From: Bacteroidota bacterium
GTDB taxonomy: Bacteria > Bacteroidota > Ignavibacteria > UBA10030
DNA length: 41,287 bases
Assembly (NCBI GenBank): GCA_025454835.1
Contig: JALONQ010000023.1
Coordinates: forward strand, 1 to 41,287
Reading direction: 5' to 3'
Positions 6,069 to 15,305 of the stretch are shown here, piece after piece (the first letter of the stretch is position 1; the number at the start of each line of letters is the position of its first letter). The position numbers were made by a program, and so were the translations under genes. The notes under the pieces are model-generated. The model searched no databases, was not told the origin of the DNA, and worked only from the letters and a program-made list of their open reading frames with translations.

Positions 6069-6090
6069 CGCCAACGGCCCGGGCTCCGAG

Positions 6091-6120
6091 GTCAAGCCCC
6101 GCCGGGGGCTTGACTTTTTT
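6091..6120 (+). terminator. Rho-independent terminator after the LolA-like gene
   Basis: GTCAAGCCCC (6091-6100) pairs perfectly with GGGGCTTGAC (6105-6114) around a GCCG loop, followed by six T. It ends the preceding operon. Its 3' arm and T-tract also form the -35/-33 region of the next promoter. Confidence 0.93.
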
Positions 6121-6141
6121 ATTGCCCGAGCATATATTTAG
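6110..6141 (+). promoter_or_regulatory. Promoter of the iron-transport operon
   Basis: TTGACT (6110-6115) and TATATT (6133-6138) are spaced by 17 bases, a near-consensus sigma-70-type promoter. Read as a Bacteroidota promoter it is TTG-N20-TATATTTA, one mismatch from TAnnTTTG. The -35 part is built from the terminator arm of the upstream operon. The DtxR-type operator covers the -10/-7 element. Confidence 0.75.
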
Positions 6142-6153
6142 GATAACCTAAAT
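6136..6153. promoter_or_regulatory. DtxR/MntR-family operator
   Basis: ATTTAGG-ATAA-CCTAAAT is a perfect 7-bp inverted repeat with a 4-bp spacer. It matches the TTAGG...CCTAA form of DtxR, IdeR and MntR boxes. It overlaps the -10/-7 element of the promoter, so a metal-loaded regulator bound here would block transcription. The first gene downstream encodes such a regulator, so autoregulation is likely. Confidence 0.8.
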
Positions 6154-6284: not shown

Positions 6285-6959
6285 ATGGCCAGCGAGAACA
6301 TCGAGAACTACCTCAAGAACATCTACAAGATCCAGGAAGAAGAGGGCCGCGTCGCGACGTCGACCCTGTCGCAACGATTGCAGGTCTCCGCGGCCTCCGT
6401 CTCAGAAATGGTCCGCCGGCTCGCCGAAGAAGGACTGCTGCGCCACACGCCATACAAGGGCGTGGAACTCACCGAGCGCGGACGATCCCTGGCGCTTCGG
6501 ATCGTCCGTCGGCACCGGCTGTGGGAGGTCTTCCTGTTCAAGGTGCTCAAGTACGACTGGGACGAGGTCGACGCCGAGGCCGAGCGGTTGGAGCACATGA
6601 CCTCTGAACGGCTCGAAGAACGGCTGGACGCTGCGCTGGGCCACCCGACCCATGACCCCCACGGGCACGCGATCCCGACCCGGGACGGCCGCCTCGTGCG
6701 CGACCGGCACCGGCTGCTGGCCGACGCTCAGGCCGGTGAGGTGCTCGAGATCCGGCGGGTCAGTGACGACAGTCCGGAGTTGCTGCAGTACGCGGCGCGT
6801 GTCGGCATTGCCCTCGGGAGCAAGGTGCGCGTACTCGAACGACAGTCGTTCGACGGCAGCCTTCGGGTGCGGATCGGCGGCGAAGAGGTCGTCATCACCG
6901 ACCGGCTTGCGTCGCGGGTTCACGTTGAAGGAAGTGACGCACGGAGGAGATCATCATGA
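6285..6959 (+). CDS. DtxR/MntR-family metal-dependent transcriptional regulator
   Basis: A 224-residue cytoplasmic regulator with three parts. It has a winged helix-turn-helix (residues 5-68, recognition helix SAASVSEMVRRL), a metal-binding and dimerisation domain (about 70-145), and a C-terminal SH3-like FeoA domain (about 148-215). Candidate metal ligands by alignment to DtxR are His77, Glu81, Asp96, Glu100, Glu103 and His104. The position of DtxR Met10 or MntR Asp8 is Asn8, so the primary site differs. The ATG at 6285 follows the operator-promoter at 6110-6153. It overlaps the next gene by ATGA. Fe(II) rather than Mn(II) sensing is inferred from the feoB genes downstream. Confidence 0.92.
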   Translation: MASENIENYLKNIYKIQEEEGRVATSTLSQRLQVSAASVSEMVRRLAEEGLLRHTPYKGVELTERGRSLALRIVRRHRLWEVFLFKVLKYDWDEVDAEAERLEHMTSERLEERLDAALGHPTHDPHGHAIPTRDGRLVRDRHRLLADAQAGEVLEIRRVSDDSPELLQYAARVGIALGSKVRVLERQSFDGSLRVRIGGEEVVITDRLASRVHVEGSDARRRSS

Positions 6960-7951
6960 CCGTTTGGATCAGCTTCATCGCTGCGGCCGCGCTGACGTGG
7001 ATGATCGTTGCCCTCGCGCGTCGATGGCTGCGCCGCCGGCAGCTGAAGGAACTCGCGCGCATCGAGGACGCCGTCAAGCACCTCTTTCACGAAGACGAAC
7101 GCGCGGGGGCCGCCACGCTCCTCAGCCTCTCGGGCGCCATGGGCATCACGCCCGACCGTGCCGCCGAGATCGCCGCCTCGCTCATGAACGACGGCCTCGC
7201 GCTGCAGGATGAAGGCCGCATCCGCCTCACCGCGCTCGGCCGGGAGCGTGCGCTTGCCGTCATCCGTCGGCACCGTCTCTATGAGCGCTTCCTGGCCGAC
7301 GAGACCGGCGTGCAACCGTCGGCGTGGCACGACCGCGCCGACCGCGAAGAGCATCGGTTGACGGAATCCGAGGCCGAACATCTGGCGCGGCGTTTGGGCG
7401 ACCCGCTGATCGATCCGCACGGTGACCCGATCCCCTCGGCAGCGGGAACGCTGCCGTCACTCCGCGGAGGTCCGTTGCATGCAGCGACACCGGGGACGAC
7501 GGTCATGGTCGTCCACATTGAGGACGAACCGAGGTCCGTCTTTCAGGAGTTGCAGTCGCATGGCTTGCAGCCGGGGGTTCGTTTCCGCGTGACGGAGCGG
7601 TCGGAACGCTCGGTCGTCGTCGAGCGGAGAGGCCGGACCATCGTGCTGTCGACGGTGGCGGCCGCCAATGTGACCGTGGTCCCCGCTGCCCCCGAGGTGC
7701 GCGCCATGGCGACGCTCGAGTCGATTCCGAACGGTCGCACCGTGATCGTTGCCGCCATCGACGACGCCTGCTACGGCGTCCAGCGCCGACGACTGCTCGA
7801 CCTCGGCTTCGTTCCGGGCACACCCATCACGCCCGAGCTTCCCAGCCCCGGGGGAGATCCGGTGGCGTATCGGGTGAGGGGTGCCTTGGTCGCATTGCGA
7901 AACGTCCAGGCCGCCCAGATCCTGGTCGAACCATCAGAGGTGTCGTCATGA
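6956..7951 (+). CDS. Membrane-anchored DtxR-like protein with FeoA domains
   Basis: A 331-residue protein with an unusual order. It has a transmembrane helix (residues 3-22) with a basic flank (ARRWLRRR), a DtxR-like winged helix (about 36-100), a DtxR-like metal-binding domain (about 101-150), a degenerate SH3/FeoA-like domain (about 172-245) and a clear FeoA domain (248-326, with RRRLLDLGFVPGTPI and RVRGALVALR). The metal residues of DtxR have counterparts: Asp38 (MntR Asp8), His106, Glu110, His125, Asp129, Glu132 and His133. It overlaps both neighbours by four bases. It probably supplies FeoA to the split FeoB and may sense iron at the membrane. Whether it binds DNA is unknown. Confidence 0.85.
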   Translation: MTVWISFIAAAALTWMIVALARRWLRRRQLKELARIEDAVKHLFHEDERAGAATLLSLSGAMGITPDRAAEIAASLMNDGLALQDEGRIRLTALGRERALAVIRRHRLYERFLADETGVQPSAWHDRADREEHRLTESEAEHLARRLGDPLIDPHGDPIPSAAGTLPSLRGGPLHAATPGTTVMVVHIEDEPRSVFQELQSHGLQPGVRFRVTERSERSVVVERRGRTIVLSTVAAANVTVVPAAPEVRAMATLESIPNGRTVIVAAIDDACYGVQRRRLLDLGFVPGTPITPELPSPGGDPVAYRVRGALVALRNVQAAQILVEPSEVSS

Positions 7952-8766
7952 GTTCCGAACGTCCGACGGCATGCGAAACCTGTCCGGCGAATCCGAATGC
8001 GGCGCTCGTCCGCCACGGAGAGACCGTGGACGGCGCGACGTATGTCGTCGCCCTCGCGGGCAACCCGAACGTCGGCAAGAGCACGGTCTTCAATCATCTC
8101 ACCGGTCTGCGCCAGCACACCGGCAACTGGCCCGGCAAGACCGTCGCCCGAGCCGAGGGGTCGTTCACGTACCGCTCCAATCGCTACAAGGTCGTCGACC
8201 TGCCGGGCACCTATTCGCTCTTGTCGACGAGTACGGACGAAGAGGTGGCCCGTGACTTCATGCTCTTTGGACGTCCTGACGTGACCGTGATCGTGGCCGA
8301 TGCGACCCTGCTGGAGCGAAATCTGAACCTTGTTCTTCAGGTGCTCGAGATCACCGACCGGGCCGTCGTGTGCCTCAACCTGATCGACGAAGCCGCGCAG
8401 CACGGCATCACCGTGGATGCGCGCAGCCTGTCACGCGACCTGGGGATCCCGGTGATCCCGGCGGCGGCGCGCAACGGCACGGGCATGGCGGAACTGCTCC
8501 AGGCCTTGCACGAGGTGGCCACGGGCGCGCTGGTTTGCACGCCGCGCCGCTTTTCGCTCGGCTCGAAGAAGCTCAAGGCGGTGCAGGCGCTGACGAAGCA
8601 GGTCGAGCAGACCTTTCCTGGGTTGCCGAACGCTCGATGGGTGGCCTTGCGCCTGCTCGAAGGCGATGCACGCATCGTCGATGCCGTGCGGAGTGGAGAG
8701 ATCGGACGAATGACGGTGGAGCGAACGCTGAGGACGGAGAGGAAGGGACATGACACAGAAGCATGA
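7948..8766 (+). CDS. feoB: FeoB N-terminal GTPase (split FeoB)
   Basis: A 272-residue stand-alone G-protein part of the ferrous-iron transporter FeoB. G1 is GNPNVGKST (38-46), switch I holds NWPGKT (60-65), G3 is DLPG (84-87) and G4 is NLID (144-147). A helical region that normally acts as GDP-dissociation inhibitor follows (about 200-260). Cys9 and Cys12 form a CxxC in an N-terminal extension, which may bind metal. The protein ends where the membrane domain would begin. The membrane part is encoded by the next gene in another frame, with a 17-base overlap. It starts with an ATGA overlap on the DtxR-FeoA gene. Confidence 0.93.
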
Positions 8767-10165
8767 TCTGCTCGAAACGGCCTCAGCCATGCGGTGGGAG
8801 GTCGGCGAGCGACTGCATGACCACACGCTCGAAGCCATCTATGACGAAGCAGCCCGTATCGCCGGACGCGCCGTCGTCGCCGATGGCTCGACGCGGCGAC
8901 GCAACCTCGAGCGGACGCTCGATCGGTTGCTGACGAACCGTTGGACGGGCTTCCCTCTGATGTTCGTGATGCTGGCTGTCGTGTTCTGGGTGACGATCGA
9001 AGGGGCCAACGTTCCGTCGGGCCTGTTGGCCGATCTCTTGGTCGACCTCGGCCATCCGTGGCTGCGGGGTCTCGCCGACGCGGCGGGTCTTCCCTCGTGG
9101 CTCTCGGGCCTCACGATCGATGGCGTCTATCTGGCGGTGGCGTGGGTGGTGAGCGTCATGCTGCCTCCGATGGCGATCTTCTTCCCGATCTTTACGCTCC
9201 TCGAGGACTTCGGGTATCTTCCGCGCGTCGCCTTCAACCTCGACGGGCTCTTCCGCAAGGCTGGCGCACACGGCAAACAGGCGCTCACGATGGCCATGGG
9301 ATACGGCTGCAACGCCGCCGCCATCGTCTCGACGCGCATCATCGACAGCCCCCGCGAACGGCTCATCGCCATCCTGACGAACAATTTTTCCATCTGCAAC
9401 GGCCGGTGGCCGACGCAGATCTTGATGGCGACGATCTTCATCGGTTCGCTCGTGCCGGCCTCCCTCGCCGGGATCGTTTCGGCCCTCTCCGTCGTCGGCG
9501 TCGTGCTGATCGGCGTCGGATTCACGTTCCTCGTTTCGTGGGTACTCTCGCGCACCGTGCTGAAGGGGGAGGCCTCGTCGTTCAGCCTCGAGTTGCCGCC
9601 GTATCGACCACCTCGGATCTGGCAGACGCTCTACACGTCCCTGATCGACCGGACGCTCATCGTGCTGTGGAGGGCCGTGGTGTGGGCGGCTCCGGCCGGC
9701 GCGGCGATCTGGCTCGTGGGAAATGTCCACGTCGGCGATCTGACGCTGGCCGAGCATTTCATTCTCCACGTCGACCCCGTCGCGGTCTTCTTCGGCCTGA
9801 ATGGGGTGATCCTGCTCGCATACATCATCGCCATCCCAGCCAACGAGATCGTCATCCCGACGGTGCTGATGCTGACCGTGCTCACTTCCGGCCTGGCAGG
9901 TGTCGGTAGCGATGCCGGCGTCATGTTCGAGGCCGACTCGGCCTCGGCGACGGCGGAGATCCTCTCCGCGGGCGGCTGGACATTGCTGACTGGCATCAAC
10001 CTGATGCTCTTCAGCCTGCTGCACAACCCGTGTTCGACCACGATCTACACGATGTACAGGGAAACAGGAAGCGCCAAGTGGACGCTGGTGGGTTCCCTCA
10101 TGCCCCTCGTGATCGCCTTCATTGTCTGCGCAGCGGTGGCGGGACTCTGGAGGGCCATCGCCTGA
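8750..10165 (+). CDS. feoB: FeoB membrane permease domain (split FeoB)
   Basis: A 471-residue inner-membrane part of FeoB, carrying Fe(II). A cytoplasmic linker (1-65) is followed by about 9-10 helices. The first Gate motif reads [14 protein letters not shown] and the second [13 protein letters not shown], each keeping the conserved Cys. A later Gate-like segment has [11 protein letters not shown]. The ATG at 8750 has GGAAGG just upstream and lies within the end of the GTPase gene. The two reading frames differ, so this is a gene split in the linker. A sequencing frameshift is the alternative, but the proper start signal argues against it. It is the last gene of the operon. Confidence 0.93.
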
Positions 10166-10884: not shown

Positions 10885-13626
10885 TCACCTGAGCAGCATC
10901 ATTCTGGAGACCGACCGCGTGCCGCCCGCCCGCAGAACGGCCACATACATGCCGGACGGCAGATCGCTGGCGTCAAATTCCGCGCCGTACGTCCCAGGAT
11001 CGACCACATCGTCGACCAGTCGTGCGACCTCCTGGCCCAGCGAGTTGTAGACGGAAAGGCGGGCGTGACCGCGTGCCGCAGCCTGATAGGCGATCCTGGT
11101 GCGGGGATTGAACGGATTGGGATAATTGGGTAACAGGCGCCACGCCGATGGCACGTCGATCTCTAACGCGTCCTCGACATCCGTAATGCTCGACCCGACC
11201 GTCAGTTCGTCGAACCAGATCGTTCCGGACCGCTCGCCGGCGGCGTTCTGATAGATCAGGAAGCTTGTGAACTTCCGCGGCGAACCGTTGCCGACCGGTA
11301 TGGACGAGGTCGAGATCGTCCTCAACTTCCACCCGGTCCAGTCGATCGGTCCGGCCGAGACGGTGACGAAGTTGCTCGTCGACGTGCCGGTGTAGTAGTA
11401 GCATCCGAACCGCAGCTCGTGCCCGCTCCGGTCGCCGTACACCCACGCACCCAACATGGAGCCGCCTTCGATCGAGGGGGTGGAGGAGTTGTGCTCCCTC
11501 AGGATCCCGCCGGAGGCCTGCGTCCACTCATACGTTACCCGACCGCTTCCCGTTCCTGCGCGCTTCGTCGCATTGTCGATCGCGAACGAAGCCAGGACAT
11601 TTCGCGTCGTCCCGCTGGTGCCGGGTTGCCACCATGAGCCGACCGCGTCGAGCGTATTGATGACCGTGCCGTTCAACACGGCGGCTGGCTCTGTCGTGAA
11701 GGTCGCCGTTGCCGCCTGCGGCAGGAAGTTGCCGCTCAGGTCGCGCAACGTCGGTAGCACCACGAGCCGGTAGACGCTGGCGGGGGCCAGTTCCTGCGTC
11801 GTCCGGAATCGCACGCGCGAAAAGCCCGGACCGGTGGCGTAGTTCACGGCCGTCACCGGCAATGGCGTGCCGCCCTCCGTCTCCAGGCTGAACCCCTCCG
11901 CGAGCGACGATTGGTCGATCTGCTCGGTGAACGTCACGACGAACTCCGCCGTGCGGCTGATGGATGTCGCACCTTCCGCCGGATAGGTGTTCACGACTGA
12001 GGGCACGATCGTATCGCGCAGGACCGTCCTGAACGAAAAGCCGTACCGATCTCCGGCGGTCCCGTCTCCGTTGCCGTCCAGCGTGCGGTCCAGATAGTTG
12101 CGCGCCGACGGATCGATCGTCACGTGGTACTCCGTGTCGAAGCTCAGGTAGGAGGACGGCTGGAAGTGCATCGTCCGCCCGTTGTCGGTCCACGTGATCG
12201 ATCCGGCGACCGACGGAGTGAGGGAGAACGCGGCGGCCGAGAAAGCCGGTTCCATGCGCTGATCAAAGGTCACGGAGACGCGCATGTCGACGAACTGCAG
12301 CGCCGTGGGCGGTGTCGAGGTCACCTTGGGAGGCGTTTGATCGTCCGTCACGATCTGCATCAGGAAGTCCCAGTCCCAGAAAGCGCCGGGATCGGTGTGC
12401 GAGTTGCAGGTGCCGAACGTCGACGGGTAGCCGTTGTTCACGGCCCACTGCACCCACGCGCCGTTCTGCCATTCGCCATGCCCGACGATGTGGTTGCGGT
12501 CCTTGGGGATGCCGTGCTTCTCGCACAAGTACTTGATGAGTCTGCCCGACGCAAGGTACATCTCCGGCGTGAACCAGACCGGATTGGAGGCGAATCCTTC
12601 GTGTTCGATGCCGATCGACCACGTATTGAGGCACACGGCATGCCACGCGTAGAACTGCTCTTCGACCATCTGTGCGATGTCACCGGGCGGATAGTCGGAG
12701 GGACTATCCTGCAGTCCGTTCACGCAGTAGTGGATGCTCACCGAGCGACCGTCGCTCAACGTCTGGAAATAGGACAAGACGGAGGCGTAGTAGCCTTCCA
12801 TATCGTGAACGACGACGAACTGCTTGCCATTGCCGGTCGTGTAGTAGTAGCCGGCCTTTCCCGGCACCCATCGAGCGTCCGGGTAGTCGGGAGTTGCGGC
12901 GGTCTTCAGCGGATCGGCGGATGGAGCGGCGGCCAGGGCGAGCGTTCGAACCCGGCTACGCAACGCTCCGAGCTCGACGCGTTGCGCCGGGACGGAGATG
13001 ACCTCGCTCGTGATGCCGCGCGACAGGCGCGTGAGCACCTCGTAGGCATGGCCGAGCGCGAGGTCGGGCTGGCGAATGCCGGTGTAAGCGGCGATGGCGT
13101 CGGCCCACAACGTCAGATCGGGTGCCAACGGCTCCGGCGTCTTTCCCGCGGTGCTTCGAAGATGCGACAGCAGCGCCGCGGCTCCGCGAATATTCTGGAC
13201 CGGGTCGCGCTTGAGGACCTCGGGATCCTGGCCGATCAGTTCTGCGGCGCGGCGGAGAGACCTTCCGAACAGATCATTGTCCCAGAGCGCCATGATCCCG
13301 TAAGGGCGGGGCATGCCCATGCACGAGACCGTATCGCCTTCGGCCCAGGTGAGGTGTTGGACCCGCGTCTGAGAGAACGAAATGGCTTCCAGGAGCGGAG
13401 CGGGGACTCCGAACTCCGTGGCGGCCTGATCGAAGGCGTGATCGATGTGCGATCGAACCTGAGCCGATGCGGAGAAACTGACGGCAGCGGAGAAGACGAG
13501 AAGAGGTCTGAGTCTCACCCAGCCGAGATCGAGCAAGACAGACCGCCAGAACGCGAAGACGCAAAGCCACGAAGTCCGTTTCTTCGCGCCTTTGCGCCTC
13601 CGCGGTGAAACGGCTTTGGGACTCAT
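10885..13626 (-). CDS. T9SS-exported N-acetylmuramoyl-L-alanine amidase (Amidase_2) with Ig-like domains
   Basis: 913 residues from the ATG at 13626. A signal-like segment is followed by a lysozyme/transglycosylase-like domain (about 60-170) and an Amidase_2 domain (about 265-420). Zinc ligands fit His274 (VVVHDMEG), His383 (GHGEW) and Asp412 (HTDPG). Two Big_5-like Ig domains, a carbohydrate-binding-like region (about 690-820) and a T9SS tail with NYPNPFNP complete it. It cleaves the amide between muramic acid and L-Ala. In the first domain the usual catalytic Glu is Gln (SFSQTR), so that part may only bind. The ATG overlaps the stop of the upstream amidase gene, but residues 1-36 translate a repeat, and GTG at 13518 (VRLRPLLVFSAAV) is the better signal-peptide start. 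Confidence 0.87.
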   Translation of the reverse strand: MSPKAVSPRRRKGAKKRTSWLCVFAFWRSVLLDLGWVRLRPLLVFSAAVSFSASAQVRSHIDHAFDQAATEFGVPAPLLEAISFSQTRVQHLTWAEGDTVSCMGMPRPYGIMALWDNDLFGRSLRRAAELIGQDPEVLKRDPVQNIRGAAALLSHLRSTAGKTPEPLAPDLTLWADAIAAYTGIRQPDLALGHAYEVLTRLSRGITSEVISVPAQRVELGALRSRVRTLALAAAPSADPLKTAATPDYPDARWVPGKAGYYYTTGNGKQFVVVHDMEGYYASVLSYFQTLSDGRSVSIHYCVNGLQDSPSDYPPGDIAQMVEEQFYAWHAVCLNTWSIGIEHEGFASNPVWFTPEMYLASGRLIKYLCEKHGIPKDRNHIVGHGEWQNGAWVQWAVNNGYPSTFGTCNSHTDPGAFWDWDFLMQIVTDDQTPPKVTSTPPTALQFVDMRVSVTFDQRMEPAFSAAAFSLTPSVAGSITWTDNGRTMHFQPSSYLSFDTEYHVTIDPSARNYLDRTLDGNGDGTAGDRYGFSFRTVLRDTIVPSVVNTYPAEGATSISRTAEFVVTFTEQIDQSSLAEGFSLETEGGTPLPVTAVNYATGPGFSRVRFRTTQELAPASVYRLVVLPTLRDLSGNFLPQAATATFTTEPAAVLNGTVINTLDAVGSWWQPGTSGTTRNVLASFAIDNATKRAGTGSGRVTYEWTQASGGILREHNSSTPSIEGGSMLGAWVYGDRSGHELRFGCYYYTGTSTSNFVTVSAGPIDWTGWKLRTISTSSIPVGNGSPRKFTSFLIYQNAAGERSGTIWFDELTVGSSITDVEDALEIDVPSAWRLLPNYPNPFNPRTRIAYQAAARGHARLSVYNSLGQEVARLVDDVVDPGTYGAEFDASDLPSGMYVAVLRAGGTRSVSRMMLLR
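13560..13596. repeat. Imperfect inverted repeat inside the amidase N-terminus
   Basis: CGCAAAGCCACGAAG (13560-13574) and CTTCGCGCCTTTGCG (13582-13596) form 15-bp arms with two mismatches around a 7-base loop. Similar CGCAAAG/CTTTGCG runs are frequent intergenic elements in many bacteria. Here the element is read as protein in the first 36 codons of the amidase gene. Confidence 0.7.
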
Positions 13627-15305
13627 TTGATCAGCATCACCTTGATCGCCGACCGGAACTCCGTCGTTCGCAGCTCGCACAGGTAGATCCCCGACGGCAG
13701 TTGGCCGGCGTCGAAGCGGACCGTGCGCTGTCCCGGGTGCAGTTCCCCTTCGAGCAAGCGCGCCACTTCGCGGCCGGCGGCGTCGTACACGACCAGCGTG
13801 CCCGTGGTTCGGCGGGGGATATCGATGACGATCGAGGTAGAGGGATTGAACGGATTGGGGAAGTTCTGCCGGAGTCCGAACGTGACAGGAGCGACCGGGG
13901 GTTCGTCAGCGACCGAAGTGGTCCCCGCCGTGCGGAACGAGATGACGAGCGGATTTGGCGAGCCGCCGTTGTTTGCGTCGAGCTTCATGCCGCCTGCCGA
14001 GCGGGCGGTCGTGTCGATCGTCCACGTGTAGATCGTGCCCCCGGCCAGCGAGCCGACCGGATCGTAGATGAGCGTCGTGTTGCCGTTCGTCCAATAGAAA
14101 TTGCCGGGGGCCGACGGGCTCAGGCCAAACGCAAGACGCACCGAAGCCGTATCCATCGCGCGCGAAAAGGTGGCGCCGAGGACGCTCGTCACGGGGTACG
14201 ATGTGTCGGTGCTCTTCGGGCTTGTTAGCACGACGTAGGCCGCGACGTTGCTGTAGATCGTTCGATCGAGAAATGCTGGCGTTGCGGCGGCAACGGTGAC
14301 CTGCGCTGAATCGAGGCCGTACCCGGGATTCTCGAACCTGACCCAATGCGCTCCGGGCGCCACGGAATCGAACATGAAGAATCCGTTCTGCCAGTTGTCG
14401 CCGATGTACAATTGCCCGGTCGTCAACAGGCGCACTCGTGCGCCGTTCATCGGCTTCTTCGTCTCGTTGTCGGTCACGATGCCGGCGATGAGGCCGACGG
14501 CATCCGAAGGCGCGCCGGTGAAGATCTGGAATGACTGACAGAGAGCGTACGCTTCCATTTCACGATACGCCTGGTTCATCAGGCGTCGCGTTTCAGGATT
14601 GAAATCATGGAACGAGCCCTCCGACAGTTCGCCCGGCATCAGCAGTCCTCGGAGGACGCCGAGGCTGAAGCCATCAGCCCAAGTGTCTGCATCCGGACCG
14701 TCAGTAGCTCCCCCATAAAACGTCCAATCAAGAAAAGGCCCTTGCACTTGATTGGTGCGAAGATACGCCTTGATTCTTGGCCCGAGGATTTGAGCCATCG
14801 TCCAAGATTCGGCTCGTTCCGGTACCCCAAGCCCATTTGGGTATGGCCGCGGATCATTGGGATAGGGCACCCCGGGATCAGTCTCAGATCGTTTCTCGCG
14901 AACAAGAACGAGGGTATTGTTCGTGCCTGTGTTCGTTCCGCCAGTAGCATTGCTGTGAATTGAGTGAAACCAATCGACGTTGTTCTGATTCGCAACATCA
15001 ACGCGCGCCGATAAACTAGGCTCGTCGGAGTCGTTGGGGTACGAATTGGTGTTGCGGGTGAGAAGGACGACCGCGCCTCGCGCCTCCAGTAACCGCTTCA
15101 GAAAGTTGGCCTTCTGCCAGTTGCTCTCAGATTCGTAGAAGTCGATCGTTCCATTTCCGTCGATGTCGAGCGGCCGGTCGTTGCTGCCGCTTCCTCCGTG
15201 TCCCGGGTCTATGCATATCTTGAGCCCTGTAAGCCCCTGAGAGAACGCCGTCAGGTGCACCAATACCCAGTACCCGATCACCAATAACCCGATTCGCCTC
15301 TTCAC
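13623..15305 (-). CDS. T9SS-exported N-acetylmuramoyl-L-alanine amidase (Amidase_3)
   Basis: 560 residues. The signal peptide (VKRRIGLLVIGYWVLVHLTA) is followed by an Amidase_3 (AmiC/CwlV) zinc domain. Ligands are His36 (IDPGHGG), Glu60 (ESNWQKA) and His117 (SIHSNA), with a catalytic Glu likely in the LSEGSFHD segment. A carboxypeptidase-regulatory-like domain follows (IAGIVTDNETKKPMNGARV), then a Big_5-like Ig domain and a T9SS tail with NFPNPFNPSTS. It hydrolyses the amide between the sugar and the stem peptide. The GTG start at 15305 overlaps the previous stop (GTGA), so it is coupled to the propeller gene. The signal peptide codons match a low-complexity repeat family also seen at 34550-34615. 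Confidence 0.9.
   Translation of the reverse strand: MKRRIGLLVIGYWVLVHLTAFSQGLTGLKICIDPGHGGSGSNDRPLDIDGNGTIDFYESESNWQKANFLKRLLEARGAVVLLTRNTNSYPNDSDEPSLSARVDVANQNNVDWFHSIHSNATGGTNTGTNNTLVLVREKRSETDPGVPYPNDPRPYPNGLGVPERAESWTMAQILGPRIKAYLRTNQVQGPFLDWTFYGGATDGPDADTWADGFSLGVLRGLLMPGELSEGSFHDFNPETRRLMNQAYREMEAYALCQSFQIFTGAPSDAVGLIAGIVTDNETKKPMNGARVRLLTTGQLYIGDNWQNGFFMFDSVAPGAHWVRFENPGYGLDSAQVTVAAATPAFLDRTIYSNVAAYVVLTSPKSTDTSYPVTSVLGATFSRAMDTASVRLAFGLSPSAPGNFYWTNGNTTLIYDPVGSLAGGTIYTWTIDTTARSAGGMKLDANNGGSPNPLVISFRTAGTTSVADEPPVAPVTFGLRQNFPNPFNPSTSIVIDIPRRTTGTLVVYDAAGREVARLLEGELHPGQRTVRFDAGQLPSGIYLCELRTTEFRSAIKVMLIK

Follow-up and report, generated by a model that had tools for sequence, protein, structure and literature searches.

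A membrane-anchored relative of DtxR repressors as a candidate FeoA subunit that would switch the activity of a split, divergent FeoB importer

Why should an operon that already encodes an ordinary DtxR-type regulator carry, immediately before its feoB genes, a second DtxR-like protein that is joined to a membrane helix and to FeoA domains? The locus that raises this question lies in a stretch of 41,287 nucleotides (the window), which corresponds to contig C28 in a genome of 3.2 Mb. Four genes with the same direction follow positions 6110-6151, and they code for a DtxR-type protein, the anchored protein, a FeoB G-domain protein and a FeoB membrane protein (Table 1). Hereafter, "anchored protein" denotes the product of ORF 6956-7951 (+ strand), whose ATG start overlaps the stop codon of the dtxR gene, and "anchored family" denotes its relatives. 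We consider it rather probable that the anchored protein is derived from a DtxR/MntR repressor, no longer reads DNA, and both supplies the FeoA component of a FeoB importer that is divergent and split and switches its activity; the substrate of this importer would most likely be Mn(II) and possibly also Fe(II). The features suggesting this role, as read from sequence, are one N-terminal membrane helix, intact DtxR-type metal ligands, a degenerate DNA-binding face, a pair of FeoA domains, close linkage to feoB and, within the class to which the window belongs, the replacement of mntH with repressor and operator unchanged.

Table 1. Positions of the operon features and of the predicted domains of the anchored protein within the window.
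Feature	Position	Strand	Basis
Promoter-like TTGACT-17-TATATT of the operon	6110..6138	+	Sequence pattern
Putative DtxR-type operator palindrome TTAGGATAACCTAA (TTAGG box)	6138..6151	+	Window and genome scan
dtxR/mntR-type repressor, 224 aa; HTH, metal domain and FeoA/SH3	6285..6959	+	Pfam
Anchored DtxR-FeoA-FeoA protein, 331 aa	6956..7951	+	ORF, Pfam, AF2 model
Transmembrane segment, residues 3-21 (most hydrophobic 19-mer)	6962..7018	+	Hydrophobicity, model
Winged-helix domain, residues 34-91, contains D38	7055..7228	+	Model, alignment
Metal-binding/dimerisation domain, residues 92-160 (H106, E110, H125, D129, E132, H133)	7229..7435	+	Pfam, alignment
First FeoA/SH3 domain, residues 173-243, with H187-x-E189-D190-E191 motif	7472..7684	+	PF04023, alignment
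Second FeoA domain, residues 253-326	7712..7933	+	PF04023
FeoB G-domain protein, 272 aa; FeoB_N and part of FeoB_Cyto	7948..8766	+	Pfam
FeoB membrane protein, 471 aa; Gate and FeoB_C	8750..10165	+	Pfam

The original prediction described a fusion of a transmembrane helix, a DtxR-like winged helix and metal domain, and two FeoA domains, and both Pfam and an AF2 model agree with this description. Pfam assigns residues 92-160 to Fe_dep_repr_C (PF02742, E 5.9e-21) and finds FeoA (PF04023) in two stretches (E 1.3e-28); the DtxR DNA-binding domain PF01325 gives no Pfam match at E≤1. The AF2 model (55 sequences) has a mean pLDDT of 94.8 and a pTM of 0.88, with values below 50 for the last residues. 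It places a single helix at residues 2-48, followed by winged-helix elements (H55-62, H66-78, E82-85, E88-91), the dimer/metal helices and two SH3-like stretches. Because one helix spans residues 2-48, the membrane helix is predicted not to form a separate domain and instead to be continuous with the first helix of the winged helix, on which D38 is located. Loss of the winged-helix fold, which would have spoken against the original prediction, is not seen: the model retains the fold, and it is the DNA-reading face alone that is unconserved. With only a handful of residues ahead of the membrane helix, there is no periplasmic sensor. Its length and its membrane helix also make the protein unlike FeoA as usually defined, a small cytosolic protein of under 10 kDa. 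Matches to PF04023 in this genome are confined to the dtxR gene, the anchored protein and a distant feoA on contig C29, and thus no further FeoA was found in the operon. A pseudogene was ruled out by a relative from the same genus that is 51% identical over almost the full length.

Both of the nearest solved folds are manganese repressors, with Z scores of about 22. DR2539 of Deinococcus radiodurans (PDB 8pvz/8pvt/8pw0) matches the model with Z 22.3 and 1.4 Å over 138 residues, with 38% identity over 138 residues. The 5zr6 structure, which Foldseek puts first, matches with Z 22.1 and 1.6 Å over 206 residues (35-244 of the model) and takes in the first FeoA/SH3 domain. DR2539 resembles the anchored protein in its metal domain and ligands, as well as in the Lys that replaces Glu11 of MntR and in the equivalent of His98 (PMC3327659). 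However, it is a Mn(II)/Fe(II) repressor of mntH with a working DNA-binding helix, and the published description, as far as available to us, includes no membrane helix or second FeoA domain (PMC3327659). A profile search with the anchored protein also matches solved FeoA structures, including 7r7b (E 2e-12).

Full-length relatives of the anchored protein are present in 70 of 294 genomes of its own class (E≤1e-50). Among the matches listed for 395 genomes of the phylum, 41 score at least 325 bits and the next one scores 179, a gap that cleanly splits the anchored family from ordinary DtxRs. A search of named-genome contigs with the anchored protein as a single sequence found no relative, and an alignment-based search of named genomes uncovered at least 587 coding stretches with a relative, ordinary DtxRs among them. 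We used the best 80 of these, which comprise 77 members of the anchored family and three ordinary DtxRs (L111-L113). The conservation of DPHGDPIP and QRRRL[ML]DLG is partly circular, because both served as search patterns. The family is distributed over at least eight phyla, as read from the sequence records: Bacteroidota, Gemmatimonadota, Chloroflexota, Acidobacteriota, Verrucomicrobiota, Planctomycetota, Calditrichota and Myxococcota.

Of the 107 anchored-family loci taken in, 105 are distinct and were used for neighbor counts. As in the window, feoB lies directly downstream in 103 of these 105 loci, where it is split in 81 and fused in 22. In the remaining two, either the record ends 2 bases past the gene (L101) or the FeoB frame begins within the gene and so falls outside the counting rule (L039). 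The gene preceding the anchored protein in the window (6285-6959) is indeed the ordinary regulator that the original prediction took it to be, but an upstream dtxR on the same strand is present in only 50 of the 105 loci, with a divergent one in three more. Thus, of the proposed position between dtxR and feoB, the feoB side holds nearly throughout and the dtxR side in only part of the family, and the linkage to feoB is the stronger one.

PF02742 and FeoA are each detected in 55 of 55 family members. Of 104 members, 98 have a transmembrane segment, which rules out a chance hydrophobic stretch; the six misses comprise four proteins without a membrane helix, one cut at a contig end and one borderline case. 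The distance from the end of this segment to D38 is 22 residues in 55 of the 104 members and 21-23 residues in 77, and it is 16 residues (22-37) in the anchored protein of the window. The four members that have no membrane helix (L098, L099, L102 and L104) are still encoded immediately 5′ of feoB.

The downstream partners are divergent forms of FeoB. The FeoB_Cyto match in the product of 7948-8766 covers just positions 7-51 of 90, suggesting that the gene break probably lies inside the helical domain between the G domain and the membrane part. The product of 8750-10165 is far from the canonical FeoB of its own genome, and the membrane parts differ from canonical FeoB in the invariant motifs CNAA, CNGR, PANE and HNPC (70 rows), a comparison made with three canonical FeoBs only, one of which is aligned with gaps there. 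At least two FeoB_C matches are found in 66 of the 70 genomes that carry the anchored family and in 15 of the 224 others.

The operon begins with a promoter-like site that abuts a palindrome, with base 6138 shared between them, and a similar promoter layout precedes dtxR in two other genomes (G121 and G287). The palindrome TTAGGNNNNCCTAA has a single exact copy in the 3.2 Mb genome, that at 6138-6151. With the window counted, 19 of 100 anchored-family operon starts have an exact box and 36 have a box with at most one mismatch, whereas 29 control palindromes scored at the same starts give no exact copy and at most three within one mismatch. Six exact boxes occur elsewhere in the 837,776 bases of anchored-family loci, and an exact box is present at six of 53 anchored-family genes that have no upstream dtxR. 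The best PDB relatives of the 6285-6959 product, by sequence, are manganese regulators. These data fit a model where the soluble DtxR would repress the operon wherever the box is present. No such box is found in 64 of the 100 operon starts, and therefore other sites or regulators must act there. In the window, a terminator-like stem of 13 pairs (6088-6117) shares bases with the -35 element of this promoter.

The gene content of the genomes bears on the metal that is transported. The genome of the window has only two PF02742 proteins (the dtxR product and the anchored protein), along with two Fur-type genes and a canonical FeoA-FeoB elsewhere, and a search for two importer families revealed no Nramp and no ZnuA-type gene. 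Among the 294 genomes of the class, 70 have the anchored family, 125 have a strong Nramp match (E≤1e-80), four have both, 121 have Nramp only and 103 have neither (Fisher p 1.5e-14, a value that is not a count of events because the genomes are related). Since 103 genomes have neither, other manganese routes exist. When the Nramp cut-off is loosened to E≤1e-20, both are found in 16 of the 70 anchored-family genomes (p 2.4e-7), and within the taxonomic family of the window one genome has both, nine have the anchored family only, 11 have Nramp only and three have neither (p 0.0028). This anticorrelation counts genomes rather than independent events, and it pertains to one class. The four genomes with both genes are G180, G252, G158 and G049. 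In G180, mntH and the anchored module share one gene cluster, wherein dtxR, mntH, the anchored-protein gene and the genes for both FeoB parts follow one another (L124, 751-7427); this arrangement is perhaps an intermediate of the exchange.

To judge from their flanking sequences, G121 and G287, which belong to one genus, present one well-documented in-place swap between mntH and the anchored module. Their upstream flanks match at 84% over 1134 bases, their DtxR proteins are 86% identical, and the downstream stretches match at 77.6% over 566 bases. Between these flanks lies mntH in G287 and the anchored module in G121, while the layout of promoter and box is the same. A quick tree of 25 DtxRs from anchored-family operons and 18 from mntH operons requires seven partner changes, at least three of them by starred branches alone; the partner labels are clustered nonetheless (the mean after shuffling is 14), and the branches of two rows are long. 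We also collected 33 mntH loci, 19 of which were picked for a nearby dtxR, and in 18 of the 33 a dtxR gene is directly upstream. The box is exact in seven of these 18 loci and within one mismatch in 13. A dtxR adjoins mntH in one of 14 loci chosen by Nramp alone, and in 13 of 15 and four of four picked for adjacency, which limits the dtxR-mntH arrangement to part of the class. Several genomes of this class carry an MntH with a C-terminal extension, as in L122 (2184-4052) and L123 (1665-3545), whose frames of about 620 residues appear by eye to include a universal stress protein domain.

Because the same DtxR and box control MntH in sister genomes, and because of the in-place swap, the metal is more likely to be manganese than iron. 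The importer thus appears to stand in for the usual manganese importer of related bacteria, an exchange observed in one class. The swaps with mntH, the ligands of the DR2539 type and the second, canonical FeoAB would together suit a manganese or a dual manganese/iron system, and we conclude that the importer probably fills the same need as MntH, with Mn(II) first and Fe(II) possible. Some bacteria use MntH for Fe(II) as well, and so the swap is compatible with iron too. Indeed, the homology to FeoB and FeoA, together with the fact that DR2539 has the same ligand pattern as the anchored family and answers to Mn(II) and Fe(II) (PMC3327659), might be taken to favor the same mechanism with an importer and sensor for Fe(II) and with manganese as a side substrate. 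We regard this as unlikely, given that iron import seems to be served already (by the additional FeoB_C proteins in 66 of 70 genomes, and by the canonical FeoAB and two Fur-type genes in the genome of the window), that mntH has been exchanged in place, and that the pore motifs are unlike those of the three canonical FeoBs compared. Of the proposal that the protein senses iron at the membrane, the DtxR-type metal site at the membrane stands, but iron is doubtful.

Whichever metal might be bound, the residues of the predicted metal site are well preserved. We built a joint alignment of 108 anchored-family rows (107-108 per position) and 67 DtxR rows from the same loci. The seven metal residues listed in the original prediction are present where it placed them, and H106, E110, H125, E132 and H133 are identical in 100% of the anchored family, with D38 at 97% and K41 at 99%. 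Position 129 is E in 74% and D in 13%, with D in the protein of the window, and 91 of 107 rows retain the full set of seven when either D or E is accepted at 129. The metal and dimer helices are alike in entropy in the two groups (1.64 in the anchored family, 1.48 in the DtxRs). In the first FeoA domain, H187 (100%), E189 (98%), D190 (100%) and E191 (96%) are nearly invariant, whereas the commonest letters of the DtxRs at these positions are R (81%), S (33%), D (82%) and S (25%).

This level of conservation is relevant to a scaffold model, wherein the DtxR part dimerizes and tethers FeoA to the membrane while the metal site is structural and no switching takes place. Repressors of the MntR kind can dimerize without metal, according to the available text of PMC4805248, and a membrane helix plus FeoA could alone keep a split FeoB together. 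The model is also compatible with an importer for iron. However, a scaffold would be expected to tolerate the loss of ligands, and those of both sites and of the HxEDE motif are conserved at 96-100% except at position 129, which dampens our enthusiasm for this possibility and makes it rather improbable. A Cys-x6-Cys pair (positions 46 and 53, in helix 1 and the next loop) occurs in 41 of 107 anchored-family rows and in none of 67 DtxRs, and in this subset of the family it may have a redox or metal-related function. The protein of the window does not have this pair, and its sole cysteine is C272.

The recognition helix and wing, which we take from the DtxR literature to be the DNA-contacting parts, show the opposite trend. 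They are the most variable of six regions compared in the anchored family, with a mean entropy of 2.65 bits for the recognition helix (1.42 in the DtxR paralogues) and 2.65 bits for the wing (1.83 in the paralogues). At positions 68 (S/A/T), 70 (S/T), 72 (M), 74 (K/R/Q), 84 (Y/H) and 87 (Y/H/R), the letters shown are kept in 65-66 of 66 DtxRs, and they appear in 9, 21, 0, 19, 3 and 5 of 106-107 anchored-family rows, respectively. Position 75 is still mostly basic (K/R), in 64 of 107 rows compared with 61 of 66 DtxRs. PF01325 is detected in four of 55 family members (E≤0.01; best E 2.1e-4). This pattern is the one to be expected of a sensor that has given up reading DNA, and it is in keeping with the suggested move from DNA control to transporter control. 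Given its linkage to feoB, its near-invariant ligands, and a recognition helix and wing that are the most variable regions, we read the protein as a probable FeoB subunit rather than a transcription factor.

Membrane one-component regulators of the CadC/ToxR kind have a cytosolic DNA-binding domain, a membrane helix and a periplasmic sensor domain. That the anchored protein is a membrane-tethered regulator of this sort, CadC-like in principle and bound to operon DNA, as the original prediction also allowed, is very improbable: the winged-helix fold kept in the AF2 model, the basic character of position 75 and the binding of its own operon promoter by soluble PgMntR, which has the same domain order (PMC4805248), favor it, but the recognition helix and wing are degenerate, the DtxR-typical letters at the six positions are found in at most 21 of 106 rows, a full DtxR is already encoded upstream in 50 of 105 loci, and too few residues precede the membrane helix for a periplasmic sensor.

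PgMntR, from Porphyromonas gingivalis, is the closest known protein when compared by its published description rather than by sequence. As described in the accessible text of PMC4805248, it resembles the anchored protein in having a DtxR winged helix, a metal domain and two C-terminal FeoA domains, and in sharing an operon with a FeoB, there the manganese-carrying FB2/FeoB2. Its predicted ligands are Asp19, Cys108, Glu111 and His112, and His166, Asp169 and Glu170 (PMC4805248), the last three of which are spaced as H187, D190 and E191 of the anchored protein. It differs in being soluble and in binding promoter DNA in vitro (PMC4805248), and this binding by the closest characterized protein of the same domain order speaks against the reading as a FeoB subunit. 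Only 18 residues precede Asp19, so PgMntR has no room for this membrane helix. PgMntR has been proposed as a new DtxR subfamily (PMC4805248). A search for similar soluble relatives gave 14 candidates with mostly weaker DtxR matches; at the eight of their loci that were read, the longer frames are, by eye, upstream read-through of ordinary DtxRs rather than twin-FeoA proteins.

Among the titles and abstract openings listed by full-text literature searches, none concerns a membrane-tethered fusion of DtxR and FeoA or its swap with mntH, an absence that is weak because most subscription papers lie outside its coverage. The available text of PMC8749426 mentions FeoA proteins that carry an extra domain, single proteins with two FeoA-like domains and, as a possibility, a manganese 'Meo' group of FeoB; the word DtxR is absent from its main text. 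Thus, a soluble twin-FeoA DtxR beside a manganese FeoB is already known, and we found no description of the membrane-anchored form.

As a subunit of the importer, the anchored protein would dimerize in the membrane beside FeoB, with its DtxR part on the cytosolic side. Mn(II) (or Fe(II)) from the cytosol might then fill the sites D38/E129/E132/H133 and H106/E110/H125/HxEDE. Metal binding would move helix 1, which is predicted to be continuous with the membrane helix, along with the attached FeoA domains. The second FeoA domain would thereby alter its grip on the FeoB G protein, most likely throttling import at replete metal, although the sign of this control is a guess reasoned from homeostasis. 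There would be two layers of control, with the soluble DtxR setting expression via the box and the anchored protein setting activity. The fullest version of this proposal, in which a metal-loaded, membrane-anchored DtxR dimer gates a split manganese FeoB via its FeoA domains through one continuous helix, and in which substitution for mntH extends throughout the family, is put forward tentatively.

Two other FeoB partners are comparable to the anchored protein. FeoC has a winged-helix fold and, by analogy, resembles the anchored protein as a winged helix acting on FeoB instead of DNA. It is otherwise unlike it, being described as small, cytosolic and mostly Cys-rich, with no DtxR metal domain and no FeoA; the FeoC-type Cys-rich motif (Cx2-7C) is absent from the anchored protein, with its one cysteine. 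FeoC binds the FeoB G domain (PMC8749426), and FeoA also acts on this domain, stabilizing GTP-bound FeoB in the FeoA-FeoB fusion of Bacteroides fragilis (PDB 7r7b; PMC8980893). This fusion likewise has a FeoA domain tied to FeoB, but, as described in the available text, its FeoA lacks both a DtxR part and a dedicated membrane helix and is fused to FeoB itself (PMC8980893).

The effect of FeoA on FeoB and the switching of FeoB are treated as an open question in the available text of PMC8980893 and PMC8749426. A sensor of known chemistry joined to FeoA and anchored beside FeoB would make metal-dependent gating open to direct test. Judging from the swaps with mntH, a class of FeoB proteins, split or fused and with their own near-invariant pore motifs, would be manganese importers, and such genes may well carry annotations as iron regulators and iron transporters. 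If the proposal is true, evolution has made an allosteric transporter subunit out of a repressor family.

Farther downstream, the window also carries an ORF on the opposite strand (10885-13680) whose 931-residue product appears by eye to be amidase-like, with Ig-like stretches and a C-terminal sorting-type tail, and which is unrelated to the anchored protein.
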